Positions 43,768 to 59,753 of a stretch of DNA of 64,000 bases are shown here, one piece after another; positions within the stretch are counted from its first letter, which is position 1, and every line of letters starts with the position of its first letter. The translations under genes and the position numbers were made by a program. Origin of the DNA: Gaiellales bacterium (GTDB taxonomy: Bacteria; Actinomycetota; Thermoleophilia; Gaiellales; JAICJC01); contig DASUHM010000007.1 of the NCBI GenBank assembly GCA_036273515.1, positions 1 through 64,000 of the forward strand, given 5' to 3'. Under the pieces are notes generated by a model, which was not told the origin of the DNA, did no database searches, and was given only the letters and a program-made list of their open reading frames with translations.

Positions 43768-43793
43768 GGCCGGGGACTATCGCGGATCGGTGG

Positions 43794-44972
43794 TCACGGC
43801 GCGGCGGCGGCCGCCGCGGTGGCGGCGTCCTCGCGCCGGCCCGCGCGCAGCAGGAGGAGCGAGATCAGGAGGCACCAGACGGCCAGCAGCGCGTAGGCGG
43901 CCCGGTCGCCCGCCCCGGCGATCACCGCCCCGGCGGCGAGCGGCCCGACGAAGTTCGCTGCCCCCCAGACGACGCCCATGAGGCCGTTCACCGTCCCCGT
44001 CCCGAAGCCGAGCCGGCCCGCCCCGAGGGCGCCGAGCGGGAAGGCCATCGCGTACGGCGGCCCCACCGCGACCGAGCGCACGAGCACCGTCAGGATGATC
44101 GGCGCGATCGCGCCCGACAGGAGCACCGGGATCAGCGCGACCGCCTGGAACGCGGCCATCAGCCCCGCCAACCGCAGCGAGACGGCCCTGCGGCCGACGC
44201 GGGCGACGGCCAGGCTCGACCCGATGAAGATCGTCGAAGCGACCGAGAACCACGCCCCGATCTCGCCGGAGGAGAGGCCGAGGTCGCCGAGCTGGAGCGG
44301 CGCGACCAGGTTGATGACGCCGTCGCCGACGCCGCCGAGCAGCATGATCGCGATGGCGCCGAACAGGAGCGGCGAGGCGCGCATGCCGGCGGTGATCTCG
44401 CGGAGCGGCTGGTGGCCGTGGTGCTTTCGCGTGCCGGGATCGCTGAGCGCGAGCGCGCCCACGATGAGGATCATCGGCACCCCGGCCACGGCGAACACGG
44501 CCCCGTCGGCGACATGGTCGGCCAGAACGCCGGCGACCACGGGCCCGACCATCGAGCCCACGCCCGCCGTCGTGACGACCAGGGCCAGGGCGCGGTCGCG
44601 GATGTCCTCCTCGGCCGAGTCGCTCAGCCACGAGATGCCCGCCGACCAGATCGTCCCCGAGCCGACGCCGAAGGCGGCGCGGGCCGCGAGCAGCGCGACG
44701 TAGCTCGGGGCGACGGCGCTCCCGAGCATCGCCGCCGCCGCGATCCCGGAGGCGACCAGGGTGACGATGCGCGCGCCGAAGCGGTCGCTCAGCCGCCCCG
44801 CCGGGACGGACGCGACGACGATCGCGAGGCTGGCGGCCGAGAGCAGCGCGCCCGCCTCGACATCGGAGAGGTGATAGGTCCGCGTGTAGGCCGGGAGGAG
44901 CGGCACGATCGCGAGCAGCGCCACCTCGTCCAGGAAGACGAGGACGTAGAACAGCAGGAAGGGGCGCCGCAT
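43794..44972 (-). CDS. MFS transporter
   Basis: 392 aa with twelve predicted membrane segments. The family signature between TM2 and TM3 is AGRLSDRFGARIV, and the GxGxGxxW-type segment FGVGSGTIWSAGISWLSDSA in TM4-5 suggests a drug/proton antiporter-like exporter. Cargo unknown. The minus-strand -10 TACAGT (44987-44982) is 9 nt before the ATG, suggesting a near-leaderless message. Confidence 0.85.
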   Translation of the reverse strand: MRRPFLLFYVLVFLDEVALLAIVPLLPAYTRTYHLSDVEAGALLSAASLAIVVASVPAGRLSDRFGARIVTLVASGIAAAAMLGSAVAPSYVALLAARAAFGVGSGTIWSAGISWLSDSAEEDIRDRALALVVTTAGVGSMVGPVVAGVLADHVADGAVFAVAGVPMILIVGALALSDPGTRKHHGHQPLREITAGMRASPLLFGAIAIMLLGGVGDGVINLVAPLQLGDLGLSSGEIGAWFSVASTIFIGSSLAVARVGRRAVSLRLAGLMAAFQAVALIPVLLSGAIAPIILTVLVRSVAVGPPYAMAFPLGALGAGRLGFGTGTVNGLMGVVWGAANFVGPLAAGAVIAGAGDRAAYALLAVWCLLISLLLLRAGRREDAATAAAAAAP

Positions 44973-44999: not shown

Positions 45000-46121
45000 T
45001 CAGGCGCAGAGGGCGCGGATCATCCGCACGTACGCATCCGCGCACTGGTCGACCGACTCCAGGTCGACCCACTCGTCGACCGTGTGCAGGCCGTCGCCGG
45101 TGGGGCCGAGGACGACGCAGGGGATGCCCGCCTCGACCAGGATCCCCGAGTCCATCCAGCCGTAGTCGCTGCGCACGACCGGCGCCCGGCCGAGCACCGC
45201 GGCAGCCGCCTCGACGGCGGCCCGCACCACCGGCTCGTCGCGGTCGAGCAGCACCGGCTCGCGGGCGACGACCGTCCGGCACTCGCCGTCGAAGTTGGCG
45301 TCGGCGGCCCGGGCGCGATCGAGCAGCGCCGCCATCTCGGCCAGCGACCCGGCCACCGTCTCGCCCGGCATGATGCACCGCTCGACGCCGATCACGCACT
45401 CGCCCGGGTAGCTCGGGTAGTCGCGGCCGCCCTGGATGGTCGAGGCGTGCACGCTCGGCCGCCCCCACTCCGGCGTCTCCCGCGCGGCCAGCTCGCGCTC
45501 GAGCTCGGCGATGCCGGTCAGGACCGGCCCGGCCAGGGTGATCGCGTCGCGGCCCCGCTCGGGCCGGCCGCCCGCGGCCTCGACGCCGCGGCTGACGACG
45601 TCGTACCAGGCGAACCCACCGTGGGCGAAGATGACGTCCAGATCGGACTGCTCGGGCAGCACGGCCGCGTCGGCGCCGTAGCGCTCCACCAGGGCCTGCG
45701 CGCCGACGCTCTGCCACTCCTCGTCGATCACGCAGGCGACCAGCACGTCCCCCGCCGGCGGATCTGCCGCGACGCGCCCGGCGGCGGCGAGCGCGGCCGC
45801 GATCCCCGCCTTCATGTCGCAGGTGCCGCGGCCGTGCATGCGGCCGTCACGCACCTGCGGCACGAACGCGCCCGGCTCGCCGCCGACCACGTCGGTGTGG
45901 CCGCAGAACATGAGCGATCGCCCGCCGCCCGTGCCCGGCAGGCGGCCGACCACGTTGGGGCGGCCGGGGGCGGCGTCCCACAGGTCGACCTCGAGGCCCA
46001 GCCGGGCCATGTGCTCGGCGATCACGGCGGCCACGCCCGCCTCGCCGGCGCCGCCGGGCACGAGGTCCGGGTTGGTCGAGTCGACCGCGACCAGCCGGGC
46101 GACCAGCTCGGCCGTCGTCAT
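45000..46121 (-). CDS. M20-family metallo-amidohydrolase (ArgE/DapE-like)
   Basis: 373 aa. Zinc ligands MFCGHTDVV, GRGTCDMKAGIAAA, the catalytic pair in VIDEEW, and a late His in DGLHTVDEWVD. It removes an acyl or aminoacyl group from an amino compound. It overlaps the stop of lacI by four bases and so is regulated with it. In this cluster it could open imported glycated or acylated peptides (inference). Confidence 0.85.
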   Translation of the reverse strand: MTTAELVARLVAVDSTNPDLVPGGAGEAGVAAVIAEHMARLGLEVDLWDAAPGRPNVVGRLPGTGGGRSLMFCGHTDVVGGEPGAFVPQVRDGRMHGRGTCDMKAGIAAALAAAGRVAADPPAGDVLVACVIDEEWQSVGAQALVERYGADAAVLPEQSDLDVIFAHGGFAWYDVVSRGVEAAGGRPERGRDAITLAGPVLTGIAELERELAARETPEWGRPSVHASTIQGGRDYPSYPGECVIGVERCIMPGETVAGSLAEMAALLDRARAADANFDGECRTVVAREPVLLDRDEPVVRAAVEAAAAVLGRAPVVRSDYGWMDSGILVEAGIPCVVLGPTGDGLHTVDEWVDLESVDQCADAYVRMIRALCA

Positions 46122-47125
46122 GCCCCCGCCCCACACGAGCCGCGCACGATCAGGTTGGCGTCGAGCCGGATCCGCTTCGGCGGGCCGGCGTCGCCCTCGA
46201 GCCGGCGCAGCAGCCGCTCGCCGGCGACCCGGCCGAGATCGGCGACCGGCTGGCGGACGACCGTGACCGGCGGCTGCACGAGCGTCGTCCATTCGAGGTC
46301 GTCGAAGCCGACCAGCGCCACGTCCTCGGGGATGCGCAGGCCGAGCGACCGGGCGGCGCGCAGGGCGCCGACGGTCATGAAGTTGTTCGCGGTGAAGACC
46401 GCCGTCGGCCGATCGGGGCGGTCGAGCAGCCGCAGCGCCGCCGCCTCCCCGTCGTCTCGGGTCGGCCCGCCGATCGAGATGAGGCCGGGCTCGGGCGCGA
46501 TCCCGGCCGCCCGCAGCGCCTGCCGGTAGCCCTGGATGCGCTCGGCCGACGATGTGATCTCGGGCGAGTCGGAGACGACGCCGATGCGGCGATGGCCGAG
46601 GCCGGCCAGATGGGCGACGGCCGCGCGCGCCCCGGCCACGTTTCGCACCAGCACGCTGTCGGCTGCGACGCCCACGACGGCCCGGTCGAGCAGGACGAGC
46701 GGGACGCCGGCCGTCACGAGCTCGGCCAGGTGCTCGGGCGAGGCGCCGGGCGCCGGCACGACCACCATGCCGTCGACCTGGCGGGCGCGCAGGGCGTCGA
46801 CGGCGCGGCGCTCGCGGCCGGCGTCCTCGTCGGCGTTCGCCAGGAGCACGGTGTAGCCGTGCGCGTCCATCACGTCGGCCAGGCCGCGTGCGGCCGCGGC
46901 GAAGAACGGGTTCTCGATGTCGCCGACCACGAGTCCGACCGTCGTGGTCGTCCGGGAGACCAGCGCGCGGGCGACGACGTTCGGCCGGTAGCCGAGCTGG
47001 CGGGCGCTCTCGCTCACCTTGCGGCGGGCGGCCGGGGACGCGTGTCCGTAGCCGCCGAGCGCGCGGGCGGCGGTCGCCGTGGAGACCCCGGCGGCCCGCG
47101 CAACGTCACGGATGGTGACAGACAT
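46118..47125 (-). CDS. LacI-family transcriptional regulator
   Basis: 335 aa. The N-terminal HTH is TIRDVARAAGVSTATAARALGGYGHAS, with hinge ARALVSRTTTTVGLVV, and a periplasmic-binding-protein-like sugar domain follows. It likely represses the divergent fructosamine operon and itself through TGATAGCGTTCTCA (47135-47148). Its own -10 TATCAT (47139-47134) lies inside that site, 8 nt before ATG 47125. Confidence 0.88.
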   Translation of the reverse strand: MSVTIRDVARAAGVSTATAARALGGYGHASPAARRKVSESARQLGYRPNVVARALVSRTTTTVGLVVGDIENPFFAAAARGLADVMDAHGYTVLLANADEDAGRERRAVDALRARQVDGMVVVPAPGASPEHLAELVTAGVPLVLLDRAVVGVAADSVLVRNVAGARAAVAHLAGLGHRRIGVVSDSPEITSSAERIQGYRQALRAAGIAPEPGLISIGGPTRDDGEAAALRLLDRPDRPTAVFTANNFMTVGALRAARSLGLRIPEDVALVGFDDLEWTTLVQPPVTVVRQPVADLGRVAGERLLRRLEGDAGPPKRIRLDANLIVRGSCGAGA

Positions 47126-47133
47126 CGGGCGAG

Positions 47134-47148
47134 ATGATAGCGTTCTCA
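47134..47148. promoter_or_regulatory. LacI-type operator covering two divergent -10 boxes
   Basis: TGATAGCGTTCTCA fits the LacI/GalR pattern TGANANCGNTNTCA. It contains plus-strand TAGCGT (47138-47143), 8 nt before ATG 47152, and minus-strand TATCAT, 8 nt before ATG 47125. Confidence 0.65.
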
Positions 47149-47151
47149 GTC

Positions 47152-48204
47152 ATGTCCGATCTCGAGCATCGCGTCGACGTCGCGCTCGGTTCCGAGCTCT
47201 TCAGCTCGCCCCATCTGGAGGCCGACCTCACCCGCTTCATGGGCGACGGCGCCGCCCAGATGCGCGAGCTGGCGGCGCGCTGCCGCTCGGCCGGCACGCG
47301 ACACGTGTTCTTCGTGGGCAGCGGCGGCTCGTGGGCCAGCATGTGGTCGGGCAAGCTGCTCTTCGACCGCTACGTCCCGGCGTCGTCGGACGTCTCCCTC
47401 TCCTACGACCTGATCTGGCGCGCGCCGCAGCGGCTCGGCCCCGACTCCGTCGTCTTCCTGGCGTCGTACTCCGGCCAGACCGAGGACACCCTGGCCGCCC
47501 TGCGCTTCGCCCGCGAGCGGGGCGCGCGCACGGTGGCGCTGGTCGGAAAGCCCGATACGCCGATCGGCACCGAGGCCGACGAGATCCTCATGTACGGCTC
47601 GCCGGGGCTCTACAGCCTGCCGCTGGCCGCCGTCACGACCTTCGCCTGCGAGTGGGGCCGGCTCGAGGGCGACCGCGCCGCCGAGGGCGTGCTCGACGCG
47701 CTCGCCGGGATCCCGGCCGAGGTCGGCGCCGCCTTTCGCGACACCCGCGCCCGCGGCCGCGAGCTGGCCGAGGAGCTGGCCGGCTCCGACCTGATCTACT
47801 GCCTCGCCGCGGGCCCGCTCTACGGCCTCGCCTACAAGTTCGGGCTGACCGTCTTCATGGAGAACATGCGGATCGCGAGCTCGGTGATCGAGAGCAGCGA
47901 GTTCCGCCACGGCCCCGCCGAGATGCTCGACCGCCACTCGCCGGACATGATCTTCCTGCTCGGGAGCGACGAGTCGCGGCCGGTCGCCGAGCGCTCCGCA
48001 TCGGTGGCGGCGGCGCAGGGCGCCCGGGTGCGCATGTTCGACGCCCACGACCACCCCGGCGTCCACCCCCAGCTGCAGCCCTTCGTCCTCAAGGTCGCGC
48101 TGCAGTGGTTCATCGTCTACTCCACGCTGCTGCGCGGGATCGACGACCTGGACGAGCGCGCGCTCATGGGCCACCAGGTGCTGTCCGGAGCGGGCTGGCC
48201 GTGA
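47152..48204 (+). CDS. SIS-domain deglycase (FrlB-like fructosamine-6-phosphate deglycase)
   Basis: 350 aa from ATG 47152; an upstream ATG at 47134 would lie in the operator. Two SIS domains: FFVGSGGSWASMW and LASYSGQTEDTLAALRFA in the first, CLAAGPLYGLAYKFGL and IESSEFRHGPAEML in the second. FLLGSDESR and GVHPQLQPFVLKVALQW follow and match FrlB by eye. FrlB splits fructoselysine-6-phosphate into glucose-6-phosphate and the free amine. The adjacent FrlD-like kinase strongly supports this function. Confidence 0.75.
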   Translation: MSDLEHRVDVALGSELFSSPHLEADLTRFMGDGAAQMRELAARCRSAGTRHVFFVGSGGSWASMWSGKLLFDRYVPASSDVSLSYDLIWRAPQRLGPDSVVFLASYSGQTEDTLAALRFARERGARTVALVGKPDTPIGTEADEILMYGSPGLYSLPLAAVTTFACEWGRLEGDRAAEGVLDALAGIPAEVGAAFRDTRARGRELAEELAGSDLIYCLAAGPLYGLAYKFGLTVFMENMRIASSVIESSEFRHGPAEMLDRHSPDMIFLLGSDESRPVAERSASVAAAQGARVRMFDAHDHPGVHPQLQPFVLKVALQWFIVYSTLLRGIDDLDERALMGHQVLSGAGWP

Positions 48205-49022
48205 AGCCGGTCGCGACGATGGGCGACAACTGCCTCGACCACTACCTGCCGCCGCTCGACCGGGAGTTCGTGGGCGGGAATGCGCTCAACGTCGCGATCG
48301 GACTGCGAGACCACGGCCACGACGTCGCCTACGCAGGCGCCGTCGGGTCGGACGACGCCGGCGAGACGGTGCGCGATGCCGCCCGGGCGCGCGGCATCGA
48401 TACCTCGCACGTGCACGTCGGCCCGGGCGCGACGGGGGTGACCACGATCCGGCTGACGCCCGACGGCGACCGCGTTTTCGAGAGCGAGGTGCTCGGCGAG
48501 AGCGGCGCCTACCGGCCCGATCCGGCCACGCTCGCCGGCCTCGGCGGGCGCGCCTGGGTGCACGGCGCCGGGCTGGCCGGGGGCGTCGAGGGCTTCACCG
48601 GCCTGCGCCGCGCCGGCACCCGGCTCTCCTACGACTTCTCGCACGCGTCCTCGCCGGAGCGGATGGCCGAGCTCTGCCCGCACCTCGAGGTCGCCTTCCT
48701 GTCCGCCCCCGGCGCGGAGGCCGGCGAGGCCCGCGACCTGGCCTCGAGCGCCGTCGCCGCCGGGGCGGGGTCCGCCGTCGTCACCCGCGGCCGCCACGGC
48801 AGCCTGGCCCTGGCCGGCCGCATCCACCACCAGCCGCCGGTGCCCGTATCGGTCGTCGATACGCTCGGCGCCGGCGACGCCTACATCGCCGCGTGCATCT
48901 CGACCCTCGTCGAGGGCGGGACGCTCGAGACGGCGCTCCGGCTCGGAGCCGAGGCCGCCGCCCGCACCTGCACGCACTACGGAGCCTGGCTCGAGCTCGA
49001 GGAACTGGAGGCAAGCGCATGA
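48201..49022 (+). CDS. PfkB-family sugar kinase (FrlD-like fructosamine kinase)
   Basis: 273 aa from a GTG overlapping the deglycase stop. The start VATMGDNCLDHYLPP, the sugar-binding FVGGNALNVAIGLRDHG, the end AARTCTHYGAW and the PfkB catalytic signature VVDTLGAGDAYIAACIS (Asp base) all resemble fructoselysine 6-kinase. It would phosphorylate the Amadori sugar moiety before deglycation. Confidence 0.78.
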   Translation: MKPVATMGDNCLDHYLPPLDREFVGGNALNVAIGLRDHGHDVAYAGAVGSDDAGETVRDAARARGIDTSHVHVGPGATGVTTIRLTPDGDRVFESEVLGESGAYRPDPATLAGLGGRAWVHGAGLAGGVEGFTGLRRAGTRLSYDFSHASSPERMAELCPHLEVAFLSAPGAEAGEARDLASSAVAAGAGSAVVTRGRHGSLALAGRIHHQPPVPVSVVDTLGAGDAYIAACISTLVEGGTLETALRLGAEAAARTCTHYGAWLELEELEASA

Positions 49023-50398
49023 GCGACACCCACGTCACCCCGTCGACGGCCCGCTCCGCGGAGCTCTACGACCTCGCCGCCGGGAGCATCGCCGGCGGCG
49101 TCGGCTCCGGCACCCGCTCGCACCGCTCCGGGTACCTGCCCGTGCCCGTGTTCGTGCGCAGCGGACAGGGCGCCCACATCACCGATGAGGACGGCAACGA
49201 CTTCATCGACTACGTGATGGGTCAGGGCCCGCTGATCCTGGGCCATCGCCCGGCCGCCGTGATCGACGCGGTCACCGAGACGCTGCGCGAGCGCGGCTCC
49301 CTCTTCTCGCTCGCCCACGACCTCGAGGGCCAGGCCGCTGCGGCGGTCACCGCGCGGATGCCGTCGATCGACCTGCTGCGTTTCGGTCAGTCCGGCACGG
49401 AGTGCGTGCAGTACGCCATCCGGTTCGCCCGCTCGTTCACCGGCCGCGAGAAGATCCTCCGCTTCGAGGGCCACTATCACGGCTGGTCGGACGCAATCCA
49501 CTGGTCGGGCCATCCCGGGCCGGCGGAGTGGGGGCCGGCCGAGGCGCCGGCGCCCGCGCCCGGCTCCGCCGGGATGCCCCCGGCGGTCGCGAGCACGCTG
49601 ATCATCGGCACCTGGAACGAGACGGAGGCGCTGGAGCGCATCTTCGCCGAGCACGGCTCCGAGATCGCCGCGGTCATCACCGAGCCGATCATGGGCAACA
49701 TGGGCGCCATCATGCCGGCGCCCGGCTACCTCGAGCGGATGCGCGAGCTGGCCACGGAGCATGGCGCGCTCCTGATCTTCGACGAGGTGCTGACGGGCAT
49801 GCGGGTCGCCCCGGGCGGCGCGCAGGAGCTGTTCGGGGTCATGCCCGACCTGACCGTGCTCGCCAAGGCGCTCGGCGCCGGCGTCCCGGTCGCCGCCCTG
49901 GGCGGCCGCCGCGACATCATGGAGATGGTGACCGACGGCCGGACGATGCACGGCGGCACCTACAACTCCAGCCCGCTCGTGTGCGCAGCCGTCATCGCCG
50001 CCGCGGGCGTGACGGGCGCCCCCGGCTTCTACGACGACCTCGAGGCGCGCGGGCGGCGGCTGGCGGACGGCCTGGTCGAAGCCGCCACGGCGGCCGGCGT
50101 CGAGGCCTGCTGGAGCGGCATCGGCAGCCTCTTCCAGCTCTGGTTCGCGCCCGAGCCGCCGAAGGACTACCGCACGGGCCACGGGATCGTCCAGGGCAGC
50201 CCCTTCCCCCACCTGTACTCCGGCCTGCGCGAGCGCGGCGTCCTGATCCAGCCGCCGCAGGAGGGCCTCTTCTTCGTCTCCGGCGCCCACACGGACGCCG
50301 ACATCGACCGCACGCTCGAGGCGGCGGCCGCGGCCATGCCCGCGGTGGCCGAGGCGATCGAGCGCGGCGCCGTCGGCCCGACCGGAGGCGTCCGGTGA
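49019..50398 (+). CDS. Class III PLP aminotransferase (glutamate-1-semialdehyde aminomutase-like)
   Basis: 459 aa. ITDEDGNDFIDYVMGQGPLILGH, GQSGTECVQYAIRFAR, FEGHYHGWSDA, AVITEPIMGN, LIFDEVLTGMR and the PLP-Lys in LTVLAKALGAGVP are complete. HemL proper sits in heme loci, so this paralog probably transaminates the amine released by the deglycase. Overlaps of four bases on both sides place it firmly in the operon. Confidence 0.85.
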   Translation: MSDTHVTPSTARSAELYDLAAGSIAGGVGSGTRSHRSGYLPVPVFVRSGQGAHITDEDGNDFIDYVMGQGPLILGHRPAAVIDAVTETLRERGSLFSLAHDLEGQAAAAVTARMPSIDLLRFGQSGTECVQYAIRFARSFTGREKILRFEGHYHGWSDAIHWSGHPGPAEWGPAEAPAPAPGSAGMPPAVASTLIIGTWNETEALERIFAEHGSEIAAVITEPIMGNMGAIMPAPGYLERMRELATEHGALLIFDEVLTGMRVAPGGAQELFGVMPDLTVLAKALGAGVPVAALGGRRDIMEMVTDGRTMHGGTYNSSPLVCAAVIAAAGVTGAPGFYDDLEARGRRLADGLVEAATAAGVEACWSGIGSLFQLWFAPEPPKDYRTGHGIVQGSPFPHLYSGLRERGVLIQPPQEGLFFVSGAHTDADIDRTLEAAAAAMPAVAEAIERGAVGPTGGVR

Positions 50399-52041
50399 GA
50401 CGCGCGGCGCTGGCCGCGATCCTGGCCACCGGCCTCGTGGCGGCCGGGTGCGGCGGGAGCGGCAGCGGGAGCGGCGGCAGCAGTGGGTCGTCCGGGGCGC
50501 CGGTCGACGGCGGCACCCTGCGCGCCGGGATCCCCGACAACCCGGACTACCTCGACCCGGGCCTGTCGTACACGAACGAGGGCTGGGAGATCCTCGAGGC
50601 GACGAACAACGGCCTGCTCACGTTCAAGAAGGCCGCCGGCGGCGAGGGCGCGCAGATCGTGCCCGACATCGCCACGGCCATGCCGGCCGTGACCGGCGGC
50701 GGCAAGACCTACACCTTCCATGTCCGCCCGAACGTGATGTTCTCGCCGCCGGTCAACCGGGCGGTGAAGCCGTCCGACTTCAAGTTCTCGATCGAGCGCC
50801 TGTTCCGGATCGACTCCGGCGGCCTCTCGTTCTTCACCGGCATCGAGGGCGCGAACGCCTACGCCAAGAGCCGGAAGGGTGGCATCTCGGGCATCGTCGC
50901 GAACGACGCCAAGGGCACGATCACGTTCCACCTGACCCAGCCCGACGGCACCTTCCTCGACTACATGGCGACGCCGTTCGCGTTCGTCCTGCCCGCCGGG
51001 ACGCCGTCGAAGGACATCTCCACGCTGCCGCAGTGGCGCATCGCCACGGGCCCGTACCGGGTGTCGAGCTACACGCCCAAGCAGCAGCTCGTCATCACCC
51101 GCAACCCGAACTTCCACCAGTGGACAAGCGACTCGCCGAACGGCCACCTGAACCAGATCGACGTCCAGATCGGCGTCACGCCCGAGCAGTCGGTGAACGA
51201 GATCGCCGACGGCCAGCTCGACTGGTACTTCGAGGCGGTGCCGCCCGACCGGCTGACCGAGCTTCGGGCCCGCTACCCCGACCAGGTGCACCTCTTCACG
51301 CGCAACAACACGACCTACTTCGTGATGAACGAGCGGCTGGCGCCGTTCAACAAGCTGGCCGTGCGCCAGGCCGTGAACTACGCCATCGACCGAAACGCGC
51401 TGGTAAAGATCTTCGGCGGCCAGGGCACGCCCACCGAGAACATCGTCCCGCCCGGGTTCGGCTCGGCCTACAAGCCGCACCACCTCTACCCGCACGACAT
51501 CGCCAAGGCCAGGCAGCTGATCCGGCAGGCCGGGGTGGAGGGCGTGAACGTGACCGTCTGGGGGCACAACACCGACCCGACGCCGAAGGCGGTGCAGTAC
51601 GTGGCCGGCGTGCTCAACCAGATCGGCCTGCACGCGACGGTGAAGACCGAGGACGAGTCCGTCTACTGGCCGACGATCTCGACCCAGAAGGGCGACCCCC
51701 AGATCGCCTTCAACGACTGGAACGAGGACTACCCCGAGGCCCAGGACTGGTTCGACGTGCTGCTGAACGGCGAGCACATCGTGAACGTCGGCAACAACAA
51801 CGTCTCGAACACGAACATCCCCGCCTACAACCAGATGATCGACCGGGCCAAGCGGATGCCGCTCGGTCCGGCCCGGAACGCCGTCTGGGCGAAGCTCGAC
51901 TACCTGTACATGAAGAACGACGCCGGCTGGGCGCCGTTCATGAACCGGCAGTGGCCGAAGTTCGTCTCGCCGCACCTGCACGGGCTGGTCTTCAACGGCA
52001 CGTACTTCGAGCTCTTCCCGTCGATGTGGCTCTCGCAGTGA
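50395..52041 (+). CDS. Peptide/opine-type ABC substrate-binding lipoprotein 1
   Basis: 548 aa. Lipoprotein signal with lipobox LVAAGC (Cys about 18), Gly/Ser linker, then a family 5 binding domain (GGTLRAGIPDNPDYLDPGLS, TYTFHVRPNVMFSPPVNR, FAFVLPAGTPSKD, WRIATGPYRVSSY). It captures a peptide-like ligand outside the membrane. It is a close paralog of the second binding protein at 54049. Confidence 0.9.
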   Translation: MRRAALAAILATGLVAAGCGGSGSGSGGSSGSSGAPVDGGTLRAGIPDNPDYLDPGLSYTNEGWEILEATNNGLLTFKKAAGGEGAQIVPDIATAMPAVTGGGKTYTFHVRPNVMFSPPVNRAVKPSDFKFSIERLFRIDSGGLSFFTGIEGANAYAKSRKGGISGIVANDAKGTITFHLTQPDGTFLDYMATPFAFVLPAGTPSKDISTLPQWRIATGPYRVSSYTPKQQLVITRNPNFHQWTSDSPNGHLNQIDVQIGVTPEQSVNEIADGQLDWYFEAVPPDRLTELRARYPDQVHLFTRNNTTYFVMNERLAPFNKLAVRQAVNYAIDRNALVKIFGGQGTPTENIVPPGFGSAYKPHHLYPHDIAKARQLIRQAGVEGVNVTVWGHNTDPTPKAVQYVAGVLNQIGLHATVKTEDESVYWPTISTQKGDPQIAFNDWNEDYPEAQDWFDVLLNGEHIVNVGNNNVSNTNIPAYNQMIDRAKRMPLGPARNAVWAKLDYLYMKNDAGWAPFMNRQWPKFVSPHLHGLVFNGTYFELFPSMWLSQ

Positions 52042-52054
52042 CAACTGACGGCGC

Positions 52055-53044
52055 ATGACGGTCGAGGCCGTCGCCGTACCAGGGGGGCGGGGCGGCTTCG
52101 GGCTCGCGTGGCGGCGGCTGCGGCGAAACCCGGCCGCGATCATCTCGGCGGCGATCCTGATCGCGATCCTCCTGATCTGCTTCCCGCTGGCGCCGCTGTT
52201 CGTCGATCTGGCCTGCCACCACGGGCCGAACGACCAGAACATCCAGGGCTACATCCATCAGGGCGGCCACCGCATCCCGGTCGTGGGCCTCGACGGCACG
52301 CCCGTCGGGCCGGGCCTGCGCTCCTGCTACATGCTCGGCGCCGACGCCAACGGCCGCGACCTGGCGGTGCGGATCCTCTACGGGGGCCGCATCTCGCTGT
52401 TCGTCGGGATCACGTCGGCGCTCCTCTGCGTCTTCCTCGCGCTCATCCTGGGCCTCGTCGGCGGCTACCGGGGCGGCTTCGTCGACTCGGTCATCGGCCG
52501 GCTGCTCGACCTGATCTGGTCGTTCCCGGTGTACCTGCTCGCGGTCGCGCTGGCGACGACGCTCGCGGTGGGAGGGCTCTCGGTGGGGCCGCTGCACGTC
52601 TCGTCGACCTCGCTCGCGATCCCGATCGTGGTGATCGCGGTCGTCTTCGTGCCCTACGTGGCCCGGCCGATCCGCGGGCAGGTGCTGGCGCTGCGGCGGA
52701 TGGAGTTCGTGGAGGCGGCCGTCGCGACCGGGGCCGGGCCGGTGCGCATCATGCTCCGGGAGCTCCTGCCCAACATCGCGTCGATCACGCTCGTGATGCT
52801 GACGCTGATCGTCGCGAACAACATCCTCGTCGAGGCCGCCCTCTCGTTCCTCGGCGTCGGCGTCCCTGTGCTCACGCCGTCGTGGGGCAACATCATCGAG
52901 CAGGGCTATTCGTCGATCGTGACCGCGCCTGCCCTGACCGTGGCCCCGGGGATCGCGATCATGGTGACCGTCGTCGCCCTGAACGTCCTCGGCGACGCGC
53001 TGCGCGACGCGCTCGATCCCCACGCCCGCATCCGGATCCGGTGA
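52055..53044 (+). CDS. ABC transporter permease, DppC-like
   Basis: 329 aa. N-terminal cytosolic start, TM1 (AAIISAAILIAILLICFPL), an outside loop with LGADANGRDLAVRILYGGRISL, and the BPD domain with the EAA loop EAAVATGAGPVRIMLRELLPN that docks to the ATPase. It forms the membrane channel with the next gene product. Confidence 0.9.
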   Translation: MTVEAVAVPGGRGGFGLAWRRLRRNPAAIISAAILIAILLICFPLAPLFVDLACHHGPNDQNIQGYIHQGGHRIPVVGLDGTPVGPGLRSCYMLGADANGRDLAVRILYGGRISLFVGITSALLCVFLALILGLVGGYRGGFVDSVIGRLLDLIWSFPVYLLAVALATTLAVGGLSVGPLHVSSTSLAIPIVVIAVVFVPYVARPIRGQVLALRRMEFVEAAVATGAGPVRIMLRELLPNIASITLVMLTLIVANNILVEAALSFLGVGVPVLTPSWGNIIEQGYSSIVTAPALTVAPGIAIMVTVVALNVLGDALRDALDPHARIRIR

Positions 53045-53050
53045 CCTGAC

Positions 53051-54019
53051 GTGGGCGCGTTCATCCTGAGGCGGATGGTCGGCCTCGTGATCGTGCTCTT
53101 CGCGATCTCGGTGCTCGTGTTCGTGATCTTCAACGTCATCCCGGGCGGCGACCCGGCGCTGCGGCTGGCCGGCCGCCACCCGACCCAGGAGAACATCCGC
53201 CAGATCCGCAAGGACTGGGGCTTCGACAGGCCGCTCTACGTGCAGTACGGCGACATGATGGAGCGGCTGTTCATCAAGCGCGACCTGATCTCCTACCAGG
53301 ATCAGACGCCGGTGCTCCCGACCATCGAGCGGGGCATCCCGCGGACGCTCGCGCTGGCGGTGGGGGCGGCGGTCATCTGGCTCGTCACCGGGGTGCTGAT
53401 CGGCGTTCTGTCCGCCATCCACCAGGGCCGGTTCCTCGACCGCATCCTGACGGTGCTGGCGCTCGCAGGCGTGTCGATCCCGATCTTCTGGCTCGGCGCC
53501 GTGCTGCTCTATCTGCTCACGTTCCGGTATCACTCGTGGGCGATCTTCTCGTGGGTGCCGCCCGGCGGATACGTCCCGCTCGCGACCAGCCCGGTCGGCT
53601 GGGCGGAGCATCTGATCCTGCCCTGGATCGTGCTCGCCGTCGTCTCGATCGGCTTCTACGCGCGGGTGGTGCGGGCGTCGATGCTCGAGGTGATGAACGC
53701 CGACTACGTGCGCACCGCCAGGGCGAAGGGGCTGTCGGCGAGGCGCGTGCTCACGCGGCACACGCTGCGGACCTGCCTGATCCCGGTGGTGACGCTCTTC
53801 GGGCTCGACTTCGGGGCGGCGGTCGGCGGCACCGTCATCCTGATCGAGCCGATCTTCGGAATCGAGGGGGTGGGCCAGTACGCCCAGGAGTCCGTCGCCC
53901 ACCTCGACCTGCCGCCGCTGATGGCGCTGACGCTCTACGGGGCCTTCTTCGTCGTCATCGCCAACACGATCGTCGACGTGGCCTATGTGTGGCTCGACCC
54001 GCGCACGCGGATCGAGTAG
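53051..54019 (+). CDS. ABC transporter permease, DppB-like
   Basis: 322 aa from GTG 53051. It opens FILRRMVGLVIVLFAISVLVFVIFNVIPGGDPA, typical of DppB, and has the EAA loop DYVRTARAKGLSARRVLTRHTLRTCLIPV. No ATPase gene follows, so the importer must borrow DppD/F-type subunits encoded elsewhere. Confidence 0.9.
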   Translation: MGAFILRRMVGLVIVLFAISVLVFVIFNVIPGGDPALRLAGRHPTQENIRQIRKDWGFDRPLYVQYGDMMERLFIKRDLISYQDQTPVLPTIERGIPRTLALAVGAAVIWLVTGVLIGVLSAIHQGRFLDRILTVLALAGVSIPIFWLGAVLLYLLTFRYHSWAIFSWVPPGGYVPLATSPVGWAEHLILPWIVLAVVSIGFYARVVRASMLEVMNADYVRTARAKGLSARRVLTRHTLRTCLIPVVTLFGLDFGAAVGGTVILIEPIFGIEGVGQYAQESVAHLDLPPLMALTLYGAFFVVIANTIVDVAYVWLDPRTRIE

Positions 54020-54048
54020 TGAACCTTTCGGAGTGGGAGGGAAGACAG

Positions 54049-55686
54049 ATGGTGAGACGCGCGCTTTGGGTTCTGGCCGTGGCGCTGCTCGCGGCCGGAT
54101 GCGGTTCCGGATCGGGGTCGAGCTCCGGCGGGAGCGGCGGGGTGCAGAACGGCGGCACGCTGCGCGCCGGGATCCCGGACGACCCCGACCACCTCGACAC
54201 CGGCATCTCCTACGCCGTCGAGGGCTGGGAGCTGCTCGAGGCGACGAACAACGGCCTGCTGACGTTCAAGAAGGCCTCGGGGTCGGCCGGCTCCGAGGTC
54301 GTTCCCGACATCGCCACCGCGATGCCGGCGGTGACCGACGGCGGCCTGACCTATACGTTCCACGTCCATCCCGGCGTGCGCTTCTCGCCGCCGGTCAACC
54401 GGGCGGTGAAGCCGTCCGACTTCCAGTTCGCGATCGAGCGGCTGTTCCACGTCGGCTCGCCCGGCGTCGGCTTCTACACGATCATCCAGGGCGCGAACGC
54501 CTACGCCGCCCACAAGGCGGCACACATCTCGGGGATCGTCGCCAACGACCAGGCGATGACGATCGCCTTCCACCTGACCCACCCCGACGGCGCGTTCCTG
54601 GACATCATGGCGATGCCGTTCGCCTTCGCCGTGCCGGCCGGCATGCCGTACAAGGACATCTCGACGGATCCGCAGTGGCGGGTCGCGACCGGGCCGTACA
54701 TGGTGAAGACCTACGTGCCCAAGCAGCAGATCGTGCTGGTGCGAAACCCCAACTTCACGCAGTGGTCGCCGAACTCGCCGAACGGCCACCTGAACGGGGT
54801 GAACATCCAGATCGGGGTGACGCCCGAGCAGTCCGTGAACGAGACGATCGACGGCCAGCTCGACTGGTACATGGAGGCGGTGCCGCCCGACCGGTTGACG
54901 GCGCTCAAGGCCCGCTACCCGAGCCAGGTGCACATGTACCCGCGCAACAACGACACCTACTTCTCGATGAACGAGCGGCTGGCGCCGTTCAACAAGCTCG
55001 CGGTGCGCCAGGCGGTGAACTACGCCATCGACCGAAACGCGCTCGTGAAGCTCTTCGGCGGCCAGGGCACGCCCACCGAGACGGTGATCCCGCCGAGCTT
55101 CGGCTCGGCCTACCACGAGCCGAACCTGTACCCGCACGACGTCGCCAAGGCCAAGCAGCTGATCCAGCAGGCGGGTGCGGTCGGCGCGCCGGTGCAGATC
55201 TGGACGACGAACGCCGACCCGGCGCCCAAGGCGGCCCAGTACCTGGCGAGCGTGCTGGGCTCGATCGGCCTCAAGGTCACCGGCGTGCGCACGATCGACG
55301 ACTCGGTCTACTGGGACACCCTGCTGTCCGAGAAGACCGATCCCCAGATCGCCTTCAACCACTTCGACCAGGACTACCCGGAGGGCGAGGACTTCATCGA
55401 TACTCTGCTGAACGGTGAGCACATCGTGAACGTGGGGAACAACGACGTCTCGAACACCGACGATCCGGCGCTGAACGCGATGATCGACCGCACCAAGCGG
55501 ATGCCGCTCGGCGCCGCCCGCAACGCCATGTGGGCGAAGATCGACAACCAGTTCATGCAGCGCGACGCGGGCTGGGCGCCGTTCATGCACCTCGACGAGC
55601 CGAAGTTCGTGTCGGCCAATCTGCACGGCCTCGTCTTCACGGGCTCCTATTTCGAGCTTCTACCGGAGATGTGGCTCTCGAGGTGA
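54049..55686 (+). CDS. Peptide/opine-type ABC substrate-binding lipoprotein 2
   Basis: 545 aa from ATG 54049 with GGAGGGAAG upstream. Lipobox LLAAGC, then a family 5 domain closely similar to binding protein 1 along its whole length (shared NGGTLRAGIPD, RAVKPSDF, PSNNGHLN-type, RLAPFNKLAVRQAVNYAIDRNAL, LHGLVF). Probably a duplicate with shifted ligand range, sharing one permease pair. Confidence 0.9.
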   Translation: MVRRALWVLAVALLAAGCGSGSGSSSGGSGGVQNGGTLRAGIPDDPDHLDTGISYAVEGWELLEATNNGLLTFKKASGSAGSEVVPDIATAMPAVTDGGLTYTFHVHPGVRFSPPVNRAVKPSDFQFAIERLFHVGSPGVGFYTIIQGANAYAAHKAAHISGIVANDQAMTIAFHLTHPDGAFLDIMAMPFAFAVPAGMPYKDISTDPQWRVATGPYMVKTYVPKQQIVLVRNPNFTQWSPNSPNGHLNGVNIQIGVTPEQSVNETIDGQLDWYMEAVPPDRLTALKARYPSQVHMYPRNNDTYFSMNERLAPFNKLAVRQAVNYAIDRNALVKLFGGQGTPTETVIPPSFGSAYHEPNLYPHDVAKAKQLIQQAGAVGAPVQIWTTNADPAPKAAQYLASVLGSIGLKVTGVRTIDDSVYWDTLLSEKTDPQIAFNHFDQDYPEGEDFIDTLLNGEHIVNVGNNDVSNTDDPALNAMIDRTKRMPLGAARNAMWAKIDNQFMQRDAGWAPFMHLDEPKFVSANLHGLVFTGSYFELLPEMWLSR

Positions 55687-57041
55687 CCCTCGCCGTGCGC
55701 ATCGACGACTGCCTCTCGATCCGCGAGGGGCACCTGTGGATCGAGGAGTGCGACGCGGTCGACCTCGCCCGCCGGTTCGGCACGCCGCTCTACGTCGTCT
55801 CGGAGGACCAGCTGCGCCGAAACGCCCGCCGCATCGGCGCGGCGTTCGCGGCCGGCTGGCCCGACGGGCCGACGTCGCTCCTGCCCTCGCTCAAGGCCAA
55901 CCTGTCGCTCGCGCTTCGGGCCGTCCTGAACGCGGAGGGGCTCGGCGCCGACACGTTCGGGCCGGGCGAGCTGCACGCGGCGCTCACGGCCGGGACGACG
56001 CCGGCGATGATCTCGGTGAACGGCTCGGTGAAGGACGCCGAGCTGGTCCGCCGGGCGGTCGCGGCAGGCGCCCGGGTGACCCTCGACAGCCCGGGGGAGC
56101 TCGACCTCGTGGCTGCGGCGGCGCGGGAGACGGGTCGCACTGCGCGGGTGCGGCTGCGGCTGCGGCCGGACTACGACGGCCTCACCCAGCCGTCCCAGCT
56201 CGATCCCGGCCGGTCGGTGCGCGACTCGGCGCAGCGCTACAAGCCCGGGATCGCGCTCGAGGACGCGGCCGCGGTCGGCCGGGCTGCCCTCGCCGCGGAG
56301 GGCGTCGAGCTCGTCGGCGTCATGGCCCACCTCGGCCGCCACAGCACCGATCCGGCGGTCTGGTCGGGGATGGGCGCGAGCTTCGCCGCGGCCATCGGCG
56401 ACCTGTGCCGCGCCCTCGACGGCTGGCGGCCGGAGCAGATCGACGTCGGCGGCGGCTACCCGGCGCCGCGCGACCCGACCGGGCACGGCAAGGGGCCGGC
56501 GATCGAGACCATCGCCGACGCGCTCACCGCCGCGCTGCGCGCCGGGCTGGCGGAGGCGGGGGTCGACGCGCGCGGCGTCCGGCTCGAGGCCGAGCCGGGC
56601 CGGGCGCTCTACGCCGACACCGGCATCCACCTGACGACCGTGCGCAACACGAAGCGGCAGACGCGGCCGCTGGAGTGGGCGTGGGTCGAGACCGACACGA
56701 CCGAGATGTTCATGGCCGACCTCCTGATCGAGCACGCCCGTTTCGGCGTGGTGGCGGCGTCGCGGGCGGACGCCGAGGCGGAGCTCGACGCCGACGTCGT
56801 CGGGATGTCGTGCGGGTTCGACGTGATCGCGCCCGGCGCGCGCCTGCCTGCGGTCGCGCCCGGCGACGTGCTCGCCTTCCTGGACACGGGCGCCTACCAG
56901 GACGCCTGCGCCTCGAACTTCAACGGCCTGCCCCGCCCGGCCACGGTGCTCGTGCACGGCGCCGAGGCGGAGGTGGTCAAGCGGGCGGAGACGGTCGACG
57001 AGGTGTTCGCCCGCGACGCGATCCCGGCGAGGCTCTTGTGA
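55683..57041 (+). CDS. PLP-dependent decarboxylase (diaminopimelate decarboxylase-like)
   Basis: 452 aa from a GTG overlapping the stop of binding protein 2. Alanine-racemase-fold barrel: FGTPLYVVSEDQLRRN, PLP-Lys in LPSLKANLSLALR, IDVGGGYPAP, LEAEPGRALYADTG, and a C-terminal FLDTGAYQDACASNFNG with CGFDVIAPG. It decarboxylates a basic or diamino acid. Housekeeping LysA would not be expected in a transport operon, so a catabolic role on the imported amine acid is inferred. Confidence 0.8.
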   Translation: MTLAVRIDDCLSIREGHLWIEECDAVDLARRFGTPLYVVSEDQLRRNARRIGAAFAAGWPDGPTSLLPSLKANLSLALRAVLNAEGLGADTFGPGELHAALTAGTTPAMISVNGSVKDAELVRRAVAAGARVTLDSPGELDLVAAAARETGRTARVRLRLRPDYDGLTQPSQLDPGRSVRDSAQRYKPGIALEDAAAVGRAALAAEGVELVGVMAHLGRHSTDPAVWSGMGASFAAAIGDLCRALDGWRPEQIDVGGGYPAPRDPTGHGKGPAIETIADALTAALRAGLAEAGVDARGVRLEAEPGRALYADTGIHLTTVRNTKRQTRPLEWAWVETDTTEMFMADLLIEHARFGVVAASRADAEAELDADVVGMSCGFDVIAPGARLPAVAPGDVLAFLDTGAYQDACASNFNGLPRPATVLVHGAEAEVVKRAETVDEVFARDAIPARLL

Positions 57042-57478
57042 CCGTCACCGGCCTGCACCACGCCAGCCTGACGGTGGCCGACCTCGACCGCTCGCTGCAC
57101 TTCTACCGCGACCTGCTGGGCGTGCCGGTGCGCGAGCAGGTCGACGCCGCTGGCGAGACGTTCACGGCCGTGTCCGGCGAGGCGGCCGGGCAGGTGCGGA
57201 TCGCCGACCTCGACCTCGGCGACGGGCGCGTGCTCGAGCTGATCGAGCGGGGCGACGGAACGGCGCCGCCGGAGCACGCCGCCGGCCATCACATCGCGTT
57301 CCAGGTCGATGACATCGTCGCGACGTACCGGCGGCTGGTGAGGGCGGGCGTGAAGGCGCGGTCGAAGCCGCAGTCGCTCGGGCCCGAGGCGGGCAGGCAC
57401 TGGGCGGGGTGCATCGTCGTCTACATGACCGACCCGGACGGGGCCACCGTGGAGCTCGTCCAGGTGCCGGAGGCGTGA
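57038..57478 (+). CDS. VOC-family (glyoxalase-like) protein
   Basis: 146 aa. Two beta-alpha-beta-beta-beta modules with metal ligands His in GLHHASLTV, Glu in VLELIERG, His in AGHHIAFQVDD and Glu in ATVELVQ. It could be a lactoylglutathione lyase-like, epimerase or dioxygenase-type enzyme. Amadori metabolism produces dicarbonyls, so a detoxifying role is possible but unproven. GTG 57038 overlaps the previous stop. Confidence 0.75.
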   Translation: MTVTGLHHASLTVADLDRSLHFYRDLLGVPVREQVDAAGETFTAVSGEAAGQVRIADLDLGDGRVLELIERGDGTAPPEHAAGHHIAFQVDDIVATYRRLVRAGVKARSKPQSLGPEAGRHWAGCIVVYMTDPDGATVELVQVPEA

Positions 57479-58338
57479 GCGACGACGAGGTGACGCTCGT
57501 CGCCGGTGGGTTACGGGCGGCGTTCATTCCCGAGCTCGCGATGGTGGGGAGCTCGCTGATGCACGAGGGGGTCGAGGTGCTCGCCCTCCGCGACGGCCGC
57601 GCGGCATACCGCGAGCGCGGCTCGACCTTCGGGATCCCGCTGCTGCACCCCTGGGCGAACCGGCTGGCCCGGCCTCTGCCGGCGTCCGACCTCGTGCACC
57701 CGGACGAGCACGGCCTGCCGATCCACGGCGTCCTGCCGCGGGCGCTGCCGTTCGGGGTGACCGAGCAGATGCCGCGGTCGGTGCGGGCCGAGTTCGACAC
57801 GCACGATCACCCGGCGGTGCTCGAGGTGTTCCCGCACCCGCACACCCTCACCGTGGTGGCCACGATCGACGAGGACGGCCTCGAGATCCATACGACGCTG
57901 CGCGCGCACGGCCGCCGGCCCTGCCCGGTCTCGTTCGGCTACCACCCCTACCTGTGCCTGCCGGGCGCGCCCCGGGCGGAGTGGACGATCGACGTCCCCG
58001 CGCGCACCCGGCTCGTGCTCGACGAGCGCAGCATCCCCACCGGCGAGCAGGAGCCCGTCACCGTCGCGCCCGGGCCGCTCGGGAACCGCACGTTCGACGA
58101 CGGCTACACCGACCTGGGCCCCCTGCCGCGCTTCATGGTCGCCGGCGGCGGCCGCACCCTGGCCGTCGAGCTCCTGGAGGGCTACGAGTACGCCCAGGTC
58201 TACGCCCCGGCCGGACACGACCTGATCGCCTACGAGCCGATGACGGCCCCGACGAACGCCCTGGCCAGCGGCGACGGCCTCCAGCTGGTCCGCCCCGGCG
58301 ACTCCTACACGGCCGCGTTCCGCATCTCGGTGAACTGA
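57475..58338 (+). CDS. Aldose 1-epimerase-family protein
   Basis: 287 aa. LHPWANRLARP, HGLPIHGVLPR and SFGYHPYLCLPG carry the two mutarotase His residues, and LLEGYEYAQVYAP follows the fold. It interconverts sugar anomers, and here it may serve the glucose-6-phosphate produced by deglycation. Last gene of the operon; a bidirectional hairpin follows. Confidence 0.82.
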   Translation: MSDDEVTLVAGGLRAAFIPELAMVGSSLMHEGVEVLALRDGRAAYRERGSTFGIPLLHPWANRLARPLPASDLVHPDEHGLPIHGVLPRALPFGVTEQMPRSVRAEFDTHDHPAVLEVFPHPHTLTVVATIDEDGLEIHTTLRAHGRRPCPVSFGYHPYLCLPGAPRAEWTIDVPARTRLVLDERSIPTGEQEPVTVAPGPLGNRTFDDGYTDLGPLPRFMVAGGGRTLAVELLEGYEYAQVYAPAGHDLIAYEPMTAPTNALASGDGLQLVRPGDSYTAAFRISVN

Positions 58339-58366
58339 ATGAACGGGGTCAGACCCGTTTATTCAG
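58335..58366. repeat. Hairpin repeat family A, copy 4, holding two stop codons
   Basis: CTGAAT-GAACGGG/CCCGTTT-ATTCAG form a nearly continuous 13-bp stem around GTCAGA. The epimerase TGA (58336-58338) and the minus-strand oxidoreductase TAA (58361-58359) are both inside it. It probably acts as a bidirectional terminator. Confidence 0.75.
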
Positions 58367-59687
58367 CGAGGCCCAGGTCGCGTACCGCGAACTGGACGGC
58401 TTCCGAGAAGGTCGGGTAGGGCTGGATCGTGTCGAGCAGGACGTCGACGGGCACCTCGGCGCGGATGGCGAGTGTCAATTGGCCGAGCCACTCGCCGGCC
58501 TCGGGGCCGACCGCGACCGCGCCGACGAGCACGCGCCGCTCCGGGTCCGCGAACACCTTCAGGAACCCCGGACGCTTCGGCCGCTCGTAGGTCGACAGGC
58601 GCGCCACCGAGGTGCGCTCGCCGACGATCGTCCCGTCGCCCGAGGTGTCGCCGACCGAGGCGACCTGCGGGTCGGTGAAGGTGACCGCGGGGATCGCCCG
58701 GTAATCGGCCCGCGCCTCGCGGCCGGCCATGTCGGCGGCCGCGATCCGGGCCTGGTACTTGCCGACGTGCGTGAACATCGCGATGCCCGTCGCGTCGCCC
58801 GCCGCCCACACTGTTGCGGCGGCACGCAGGTGCTCGTCCACCTCGACGCCGCGCTTGCCGATCGTCACGCCGAGCGGCTCCAGGCCCAGCTCGTCGACGT
58901 TCGCGCGCCGCCCGGTCGCGACCAGGATGCGGTCGGCCGCGAGCGTCTCGCCGCCGCCGAGGTGCATGCGCATCCCCGGCTCCACCCGCTCGATCTCCGC
59001 CCCCAGCCGCAGGCCGACGCCCTCGCCCTCGAGGACGTCCGCGATCAGCTTGCCGGCGTCGGGATGGTCGCGCGGCATCAGGCGCTCGGCGACGTCCACG
59101 AGCGTGACCGCCGAGCCCATCCGCCCGAAGGCCTGGGCCAGCTCGCAGCCGACCGGGCCCGCGCCGATCACGATCAGCCGCTCCGGCACCACGTGCGTCG
59201 AGGTCGCCTCCCGGTTCGTCCAGTAGTCGACGTCTTCGAGGCCCGGGATGGGCGGGATCGTCGGCACCGACCCGGTCGCGACCAGGAGCCGCTCGAAGCC
59301 GATCAAGCGGTCGCCGACCCCGACGACGCCGGGCTCCGTCACCCGCGCCTGCCCGCGCACGAGCTCGATGTCGCGGTCGGCCAGCCAGGTCTCCTGGCTC
59401 GAGTCGTCGAGACTGCCGGTGACCTGGTCGCGGTGCCAGAACGCCCGCTCGACGTCGATCGAGCCGGTCACGGCCTCGGCCGCCCCCGGCACGAGCCGGG
59501 CCGCGGCGATCGCCTCGGGCGGCCGCAGGAGCGCCTTCGACGGCATGCACGCGTAGTACGAGCACTCGCCGCCGACGAGCCCCTGCTCGACGAGCGTGAT
59601 CGGCGTCTGCGGCTCGAACGACCGCAGCGCGCCGGCCGCCGCCTCGCCGGTCGAGCCGCCCCCCAGGATCACGACCGGGCCGTCCAT
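58359..59687 (-). CDS. Disulfide-reductase-family flavoprotein (LPD/MerA-like), His to Tyr at the catalytic site
   Basis: 442 aa from ATG 59687, 7 nt after the -10 TATGAT. FAD motif VVILGGGSTGEAAAGA, redox pair Cys42/Cys47 in GGECSYYACMPSK, NAD motif VIGAGPVGCELAQAFGRMG, and VWAAGDATG. The C-terminal HPT.SE of lipoamide dehydrogenase and mercuric reductase reads YPTFSE here, so the usual catalytic His is replaced by Tyr. It may be a transhydrogenase or quinone-type reductase rather than a true disulfide reductase. Confidence 0.8.
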   Translation of the reverse strand: MDGPVVILGGGSTGEAAAGALRSFEPQTPITLVEQGLVGGECSYYACMPSKALLRPPEAIAAARLVPGAAEAVTGSIDVERAFWHRDQVTGSLDDSSQETWLADRDIELVRGQARVTEPGVVGVGDRLIGFERLLVATGSVPTIPPIPGLEDVDYWTNREATSTHVVPERLIVIGAGPVGCELAQAFGRMGSAVTLVDVAERLMPRDHPDAGKLIADVLEGEGVGLRLGAEIERVEPGMRMHLGGGETLAADRILVATGRRANVDELGLEPLGVTIGKRGVEVDEHLRAAATVWAAGDATGIAMFTHVGKYQARIAAADMAGREARADYRAIPAVTFTDPQVASVGDTSGDGTIVGERTSVARLSTYERPKRPGFLKVFADPERRVLVGAVAVGPEAGEWLGQLTLAIRAEVPVDVLLDTIQPYPTFSEAVQFAVRDLGLAE

Positions 59688-59753
59688 GCGCACCATCATA
59701 GGCGTCGGATACCCTCCTCGATCGTCCCGATATCGCCACCGAGGGGGTCACCG

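Follow-up and report, generated by a model that had tools for sequence, protein, structure and literature searches.

A putatively LacI-controlled locus with FrlD-like kinase and FrlB-like deglycase genes in a Gaiellales bacterium, predicted to degrade fructosamines

Introduction

The catabolism of fructosamines (Amadori compounds) has been studied in enterobacteria, in Bacillus and in Agrobacterium. Here we describe a locus of 12 genes, at positions 45000-58338 of a 64,000-nucleotide stretch from a Gaiellales bacterium (contig DASUHM010000007.1; hereafter the window), which encodes relatives of the fructosamine kinase FrlD and the deglycase FrlB and is probably a LacI-controlled catabolic locus for such compounds, possibly in the form of small peptides or N-acyl conjugates.

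Four described systems come closest to it. The fructoselysine operon of E. coli, frlABCDR, likewise holds a kinase and a deglycase in one locus (38% and 31% identical to the window proteins, respectively), but it is served by the regulator FrlR and the permease FrlA, where the window has a LacI protein and an ATP-binding cassette (ABC) importer. The window also lacks FrlC, and adds an M20 hydrolase, an aminotransferase, a decarboxylase, a VOC-family protein and an aldose epimerase. The frlBONMD-frlP genes of B. subtilis, which act on alpha-glycated amino acids, follow a kinase-deglycase-importer-regulator plan; as in the window, a single operon encodes the deglycase, the kinase and an ABC importer (PMC12632257). 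Their FrlB is the closest solved structure to the SIS-family protein of the window. In contrast to B. subtilis, the window has binding proteins (two or three) and permeases of the Opp/Dpp type, an operon that lacks an ATPase gene, and extra enzymes for the amino side. In Salmonella, the fra locus, needed for growth on fructose-asparagine, combines kinase and deglycase with an enzyme for the amino moiety, the asparaginase FraE (PMC4072780); the extra enzymes of the window are instead an M20 hydrolase, a class III aminotransferase and a decarboxylase, and its transporter and regulator are different.

The nearest plan on a named replicon is that of the Ti plasmids pTiChry5 and pTiA47a (L147/L088), where a hydantoinase/oxoprolinase (HyuA-HyuB), a SIS protein, a fructoselysine 6-kinase (FrlD), an ABC ATPase, two permeases, a family 5 substrate-binding protein (SBP) and a LacI protein are encoded together. 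pTiChry5 belongs to the chrysopine type (PMC6733357); the title of Chilton et al., as cited in PMC10410297, describes chrysopines as opines of the Amadori type. The plasmid cluster presumably degrades chrysopine. The SIS, FrlD, LacI, family 5 SBP and two Opp-type permease genes cluster there as in the window, but the plasmid has the hydantoinase/oxoprolinase and an ABC ATPase of its own, and has no aminotransferase, M20 hydrolase or decarboxylase. The shared proteins are 23-41% identical, with 41% for LacI. In the literature we found no description of a gene cluster that combines a fructosamine deglycase with an aminotransferase or an M20 hydrolase, nor one of fructosamine catabolism in soil actinobacteria or Chloroflexi.

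Results

The kinase of the locus scored 179 bits with the NCBIfam FrlD model and 82 bits with the runner-up family, and its identity to E. coli FrlD extends over the full length (E = 8e-50), whereas ribokinase aligns over 70 residues only. It starts with VKPVATMGDNCLDHY and ends with CTHYGAW, the counterparts in E. coli FrlD being MKTLATIGDNCVDIY and YHGAW, and it contains all of the E. coli FrlD motifs GDNCxD (N-terminal), GGNAxNVA, DTxGAGD and HxGAW (C-terminal). The N-terminal GDN..D is invariant in 16 aligned proteins (15 frl-type kinases and E. coli FrlD) and absent from ribokinase. An identity as ribokinase or KDG kinase was rejected on the family scores together with the full-length identity to FrlD. 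A search of the PDB by name yielded no FrlD structure, which makes the PDB ranking of the kinase uninformative.

The SIS protein encoded just upstream matched FrlB best among the NCBIfam models (124 bits, compared with 49 for GlmS and NagB-II). When a profile of 23 sequences was compared with the PDB, B. subtilis FrlB ranked first (222 bits), followed by STM_0572 (166), FraB (153), GlmS (95) and NagB-II (75), and the same three proteins, B. subtilis FrlB, STM_0572 and FraB, were the top Foldseek hits of an AlphaFold2 model (pLDDT 91). The motif VIESSEFRHGPAE aligns with VIESGEFRHGPLE of E. coli FrlB; Glu243 aligns with Glu214 of FraB and His259 (in EFRHGP) with the HGP histidine. These residues are counted from a further in-frame ATG at 47134, beside the operator described below and upstream of the start given in the table, and FraB Glu214 was taken as chain residue 234 of 9otr on the assumption of a 20-residue tag. 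Among the 23 SIS relatives, the catalytic Glu is invariant and the His nearly so; in FraB, the E214A mutant is inactive (PMC12755824). An earlier note, made from the letters of the window, had called these two proteins FrlD-like and FrlB-like, and both assignments held: FrlD ranks ahead of ribokinase in profile and identity, and FrlB and FraB rank above GlmS in profile and structure.

Several observations weigh against a fructosamine locus. Both proteins fall below the cut-offs of the curated equivalogs (179 against 247 bits for FrlD, NF007321; 124 against 430 bits for FrlB, NF008481). The SIS protein lies in a separate clade of 30 rows (support 95/94), with E. coli FrlB outside on a long branch, and this clade also holds members encoded beside NagA, or beside an FGGY kinase and KDPG aldolase; its specificity may therefore differ from that of FrlB. 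Moreover, no line of evidence fixes the amino moiety, and in a second genome of the same genus (G283) the locus consists of SIS, kinase, decarboxylase, VOC and epimerase genes, without the M20 hydrolase, aminotransferase or importer. Because the SIS subfamily has such mixed neighbours, the identity of this protein does not by itself fix the substrate. The low scores have to be set beside the divergence of accepted members: Salmonella FraD shares 30% identity with E. coli FrlD, and FraB 28% with FrlB (PMC4072780), so that the identities found here fall within the accepted range. Given the cut-offs, the separate clade and its mixed neighbours, the two window proteins are divergent relatives, best termed FrlD-like and FrlB-like.

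The locus could alternatively degrade amino sugars or other N-linked derivatives of sugars, with the SIS protein acting as an isomerase or deaminase of the phosphorylated amino sugar and the M20 hydrolase and aminotransferase acting on its acyl and amino groups. The SIS relatives beside NagA (Mesotoga/Kosmotogaceae) or beside FGGY kinase and KDPG aldolase (Anaerolineae) would fit this, as would the genomes of family f6 in which a related aminotransferase and M20 hydrolase accompany a SIS protein of GlmS/NagB-II type. However, both here and in many relatives the SIS protein is paired with an FrlD-like kinase rather than a glucosamine kinase, fructosamine deglycases outrank GlmS and NagB-II in both the SIS profile and the fold, and the locus has no NagA. 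We consider the amino-sugar alternative unlikely.

As to the SIS relatives themselves, the protein adjoins NagA in L061-L064 (Mesotoga/Kosmotogaceae), where it is possibly a replacement glucosamine-6-phosphate deaminase; in L048, L050, L052, L067 and L068 (Anaerolineae, Thermoflexus), an FrlB-like SIS protein (50-53%) occurs with KDPG/KHG aldolase and without FrlD, in most cases together with an FGGY kinase and other sugar enzymes, and presumably belongs to a sugar-amine pathway of another kind.

The coupling of kinase and deglycase genes with an importer and a dedicated regulator, as in operons of the frl/fra kind, is found in the window and also in its relatives. The SIS protein is rare, being detected in 14 of the 299 genomes of the class (E = 1e-15). 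The M20-lacI pair with SIS, FrlD, aminotransferase, SBP and permease genes is kept in L024/L044, L025/L043 and L026; the set is split in L027/L066, L049 (a truncated contig) carries a part of it, and two Chloroflexi contigs (L046, L053) have a partial version. M20 homologues (56-66%) stand at the equivalent place in L043, L044, L026, L049 and L066. Since the gene set is kept in other genera, chance adjacency is unlikely for this core, an argument that does not extend to the decarboxylase, VOC and epimerase genes.

A near-palindromic LacI-type operator, absent from the earlier note, links the genes further. The pattern TGANANCGNTNTCA has a single match in the window (0.01 expected), between the lacI and SIS genes, and the whole 4.07 Mb genome holds only one more, which overlaps the start codon of an orphan third SBP gene (SBP3; L150:6774-8426, minus strand, genome contig C54). 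As about 0.5 sites per genome are expected from base composition, a second site as such is unsurprising; its location at this gene would be surprising, at roughly 1 in 10^5 by position. The orphan SBP is 61-62% identical to SBP1 and SBP2 of the operon; apart from this trio the subfamily has no close members in the genome, the next paralogue being 42% identical. Sites of the operator form occur at the same lacI/SIS position in L044, L045 and L026, before the SIS gene in L049, L051 and L059, and near lacI in L053 and L047; in L066, where the SIS gene lies 8 kb from the kinase gene, sites are found both before the SIS gene and between kinase and lacI. Counted by genome, all sites of G215 (one), G150 (one) and G304 (three) belong to the frl locus; of the three in G302, two do, and G015 has none. 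Other Thermoleophilia share the operator and the gene set, as do Chloroflexi in looser form, and the view of the locus as one regulated unit is well supported. Uptake by a peptide-type ABC system, as the earlier note had proposed, gains support from this co-regulation, including that of the orphan SBP. No ABC ATPase gene lies within the operon, and the genome has 20 oligo_HPY matches elsewhere, hence none was assigned to it; in L043, genes that read as ATPase-like (cluster c3) apparently follow the permeases, as read without a family-library scan.

The locus of G283 (L042, 5440-5600 and 7400-7520) has a lacI remnant and an operator with its first base changed, and the M20, aminotransferase and importer genes are absent between an MFS (major facilitator superfamily) transporter gene and the epimerase gene; this 82% complete genome gave no strong aminotransferase match. 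That G283 retains the SIS, kinase, decarboxylase, VOC and epimerase genes without the others, or an intact lacI, at the locus could mean that these five genes serve the intracellular clean-up of glycated metabolites, the importer being a separate peptide uptake system inserted by chance. Yet it is the importer, aminotransferase and M20 genes that recur with SIS and FrlD in other families, whereas decarboxylase, VOC and epimerase do not; the operator ties the operon to the orphan SBP; and the lacI remnant suggests a loss in G283, at least on the lacI side. Such a clean-up function is quite improbable.

On the amino side, aminotransferases at least 52% identical to that of the window group in one frl-linked clade with good support (100/99); the genome's own HemL falls in the HemL clade, which is separate from it. 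Within the class, scores separate the frl-linked enzymes (540-730 bits) from those of family f6 (46-48%; about 435 bits) and the HemL type (<350 bits). The window enzyme resembles HemL in being a class III enzyme (37% identity) that retains the catalytic Lys column; unlike HemL, the frl-linked enzymes lack the tryptophan of SWGP, which is replaced, have an insertion after YHGW, and differ in several active-site columns. With a separate hemL elsewhere, a distinct clade and the missing Trp, housekeeping HemL was rejected as an identity for this enzyme. A GSAM-like class III aminotransferase suggests a released compound with an amino group outside the alpha position, or with a second one. No plasmid relatives of the aminotransferase were found at 1e-90. 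For the M20 hydrolase, in which the metal-ligand motifs GHTDVV, CDMKAG, DEEW, PEQSD and HTVDEW are readable, the nearest plasmid relatives are 41-46% identical, and a diaminopropionate ammonia-lyase lies nearby in three of the four neighbourhoods read (not in that of Mesorhizobium), a weak hint suggestive of small diamino acids.

Related aminotransferases (46-48%) stand beside a SIS protein of GlmS/NagB-II type in L142-L145 (G038, G044, G008 and G032, of family f6), with an FGGY-type kinase, an M20 hydrolase (56-60%) in three of the four, and in L145 also a protein reading like ribose-5-phosphate isomerase A. These loci could be a sister pathway with a different sugar side. Tentatively, and with the odds against it, one may picture the glycated-amine pathways of uncultured Thermoleophilia and Chloroflexi as a modular family that keeps the aminotransferase and M20 hydrolase for a single type of amino moiety and exchanges the kinase/SIS pair of the sugar side: FrlD/FrlB-like here, for hexose Amadori compounds, and FGGY kinase with a GlmS/NagB-II-type SIS protein in family f6 (one locus of which adds the RpiA-like gene), where the adducts might be those of pentoses or other sugars.

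The decarboxylase has a different standing. Together with SIS and FrlD, the decarboxylase-VOC-epimerase genes were seen in this genus only (the window and G283), and they are a genus-level add-on. Like diaminopimelate and D-ornithine/lysine decarboxylases, the enzyme is a fold-III decarboxylase dependent on pyridoxal phosphate (PLP), with 230 bits to the LysA model (cut-off 297.9); unlike them, it has the CESGD and GGM..N motifs of the LysA set replaced, and its homologues are fused to VOC. These replacements and a separate lysA elsewhere in the genome led us to reject housekeeping LysA. The G301 and G304 homologues (49-54%) are encoded outside the frl locus, each sharing an open frame with a VOC domain, as apparent fusions (L139:6885-8768, plus strand; L140:7517-9391, minus strand); since the two are fused in relatives, decarboxylase and VOC protein probably act together on one compound. 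The L140 fusion adjoins an FAD amine oxidase of the N-methyltryptophan/sarcosine oxidase family. The L049 cluster has a different LysA-like gene, and its genome a second one. The earlier note had the released amino acid broken down through transamination and decarboxylation; as most relatives of the locus do not have the decarboxylase, and homologues of it lie elsewhere, fused to VOC, decarboxylation was downgraded as a step of the core pathway.

HemL and LysA are the best family matches of the aminotransferase and the decarboxylase, which could accordingly be spare copies without a role in the pathway. This is very improbable, in view of the genome's own hemL and lysA, the frl-linked clade of the aminotransferase with its missing Trp, and the decarboxylase motifs that are lacking.

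All 12 genes are intact and of the families named in the earlier note when both strands are checked (Table 1). They form two divergent units, M20-lacI on the minus strand and, on the plus strand, SIS-kinase-aminotransferase-SBP1-permease-permease-SBP2-decarboxylase-VOC-epimerase, with a 4-base overlap at 7 of the 10 junctions, including that of M20 and lacI, where the note had spoken of such overlaps for most of the genes; the permease and SBP2 junctions are gapped by 6-29 bases. The flanks (42583-44972 and 58359-59699, minus strand) read like acyl-CoA dehydrogenase, MFS transporter and pyridine nucleotide-disulphide oxidoreductase genes and lie outside the conserved set.

Table 1. Genes and predicted operator of the locus, in window coordinates.
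Feature	Position	Strand	Basis or remark
M20 metallo-hydrolase, ArgE/DapE subfamily	45000..46121	-	4-base overlap with lacI
LacI-family repressor, presumed operon regulator	46118..47125	-	family match; adjoins locus in relatives too
LacI-type operator TGATAGCGTTCTCA (predicted)	47135..47148	+	between lacI and SIS
FrlB-like SIS protein, predicted fructosamine-6-phosphate deglycase	47152..48204	+	profile, fold, catalytic residues
FrlD-like PfkB kinase, predicted fructosamine 6-kinase	48201..49022	+	NCBIfam FrlD, E. coli FrlD identity
Class III aminotransferase, GSAM-like, not HemL	49019..50398	+	family, tree, motifs
SBP1, family 5 (Dpp/Opp-type) substrate-binding lipoprotein	50395..52041	+	PF00496, 211 bits
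OppC/DppC-type permease	52055..53044	+	family; 38% to Ti-plasmid permease
OppB/DppB-type permease	53051..54019	+	family; 32% to Ti-plasmid permease
SBP2, second family 5 binding lipoprotein	~54049..55686	+	71% to SBP1
Fold-III PLP decarboxylase, LysA-like	55683..57041	+	family; diaminopimelate decarboxylase substrate motifs not present
VOC-family protein, decarboxylase partner	57038..57478	+	family; fused to decarboxylase in relatives
Aldose-1-epimerase-like protein	57475..58338	+	PF01263, 76.8 bits vs cut-off 27

Discussion

The sugar side of the proposed pathway is credible. The protein families, the shared regulation and the conservation of the gene set are read from sequence; phosphorylation and deglycation of an Amadori compound are what the homologues would predict, and we infer the substrate class and all steps on the amino side. 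As we picture it, two or three family 5 binding lipoproteins would hand the compounds to a single pair of OppB/OppC-type permeases, with an ABC ATPase from another part of the genome supplying the energy. The FrlD-like kinase would phosphorylate the sugar at C6, and cleavage of the product by the FrlB-like SIS protein would yield glucose 6-phosphate and the amino compound in free form. Going by their families, the M20 hydrolase may free an amide-bonded part, before or after this cleavage, and the class III aminotransferase may take the amino group off the released compound or shift it; the decarboxylase-VOC pair and the epimerase are additions of this genus. Of the fructosamine locus proposed in the earlier note, the FrlD-like kinase and FrlB-like deglycase stood, with profile, structure and neighbourhood comparisons placing FrlB, FraB and FrlD first and the gene set recurring in related genomes; the decarboxylation step was weakened.

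Compared with known versions of such loci, what looks new is the addition of an aminotransferase, a hydrolase and the importer around FrlB and FrlD relatives. The locus provides a testable, regulated candidate for fructosamine catabolism in soil actinobacteria and Chloroflexi, and the operator with the orphan binding protein amounts to a predicted regulon ready for testing. It also predicts substrates with an amino part that is processed by a class III aminotransferase of necessity, and this would indicate glycated omega-, beta- or diamino acids over ordinary alpha-amino acids.

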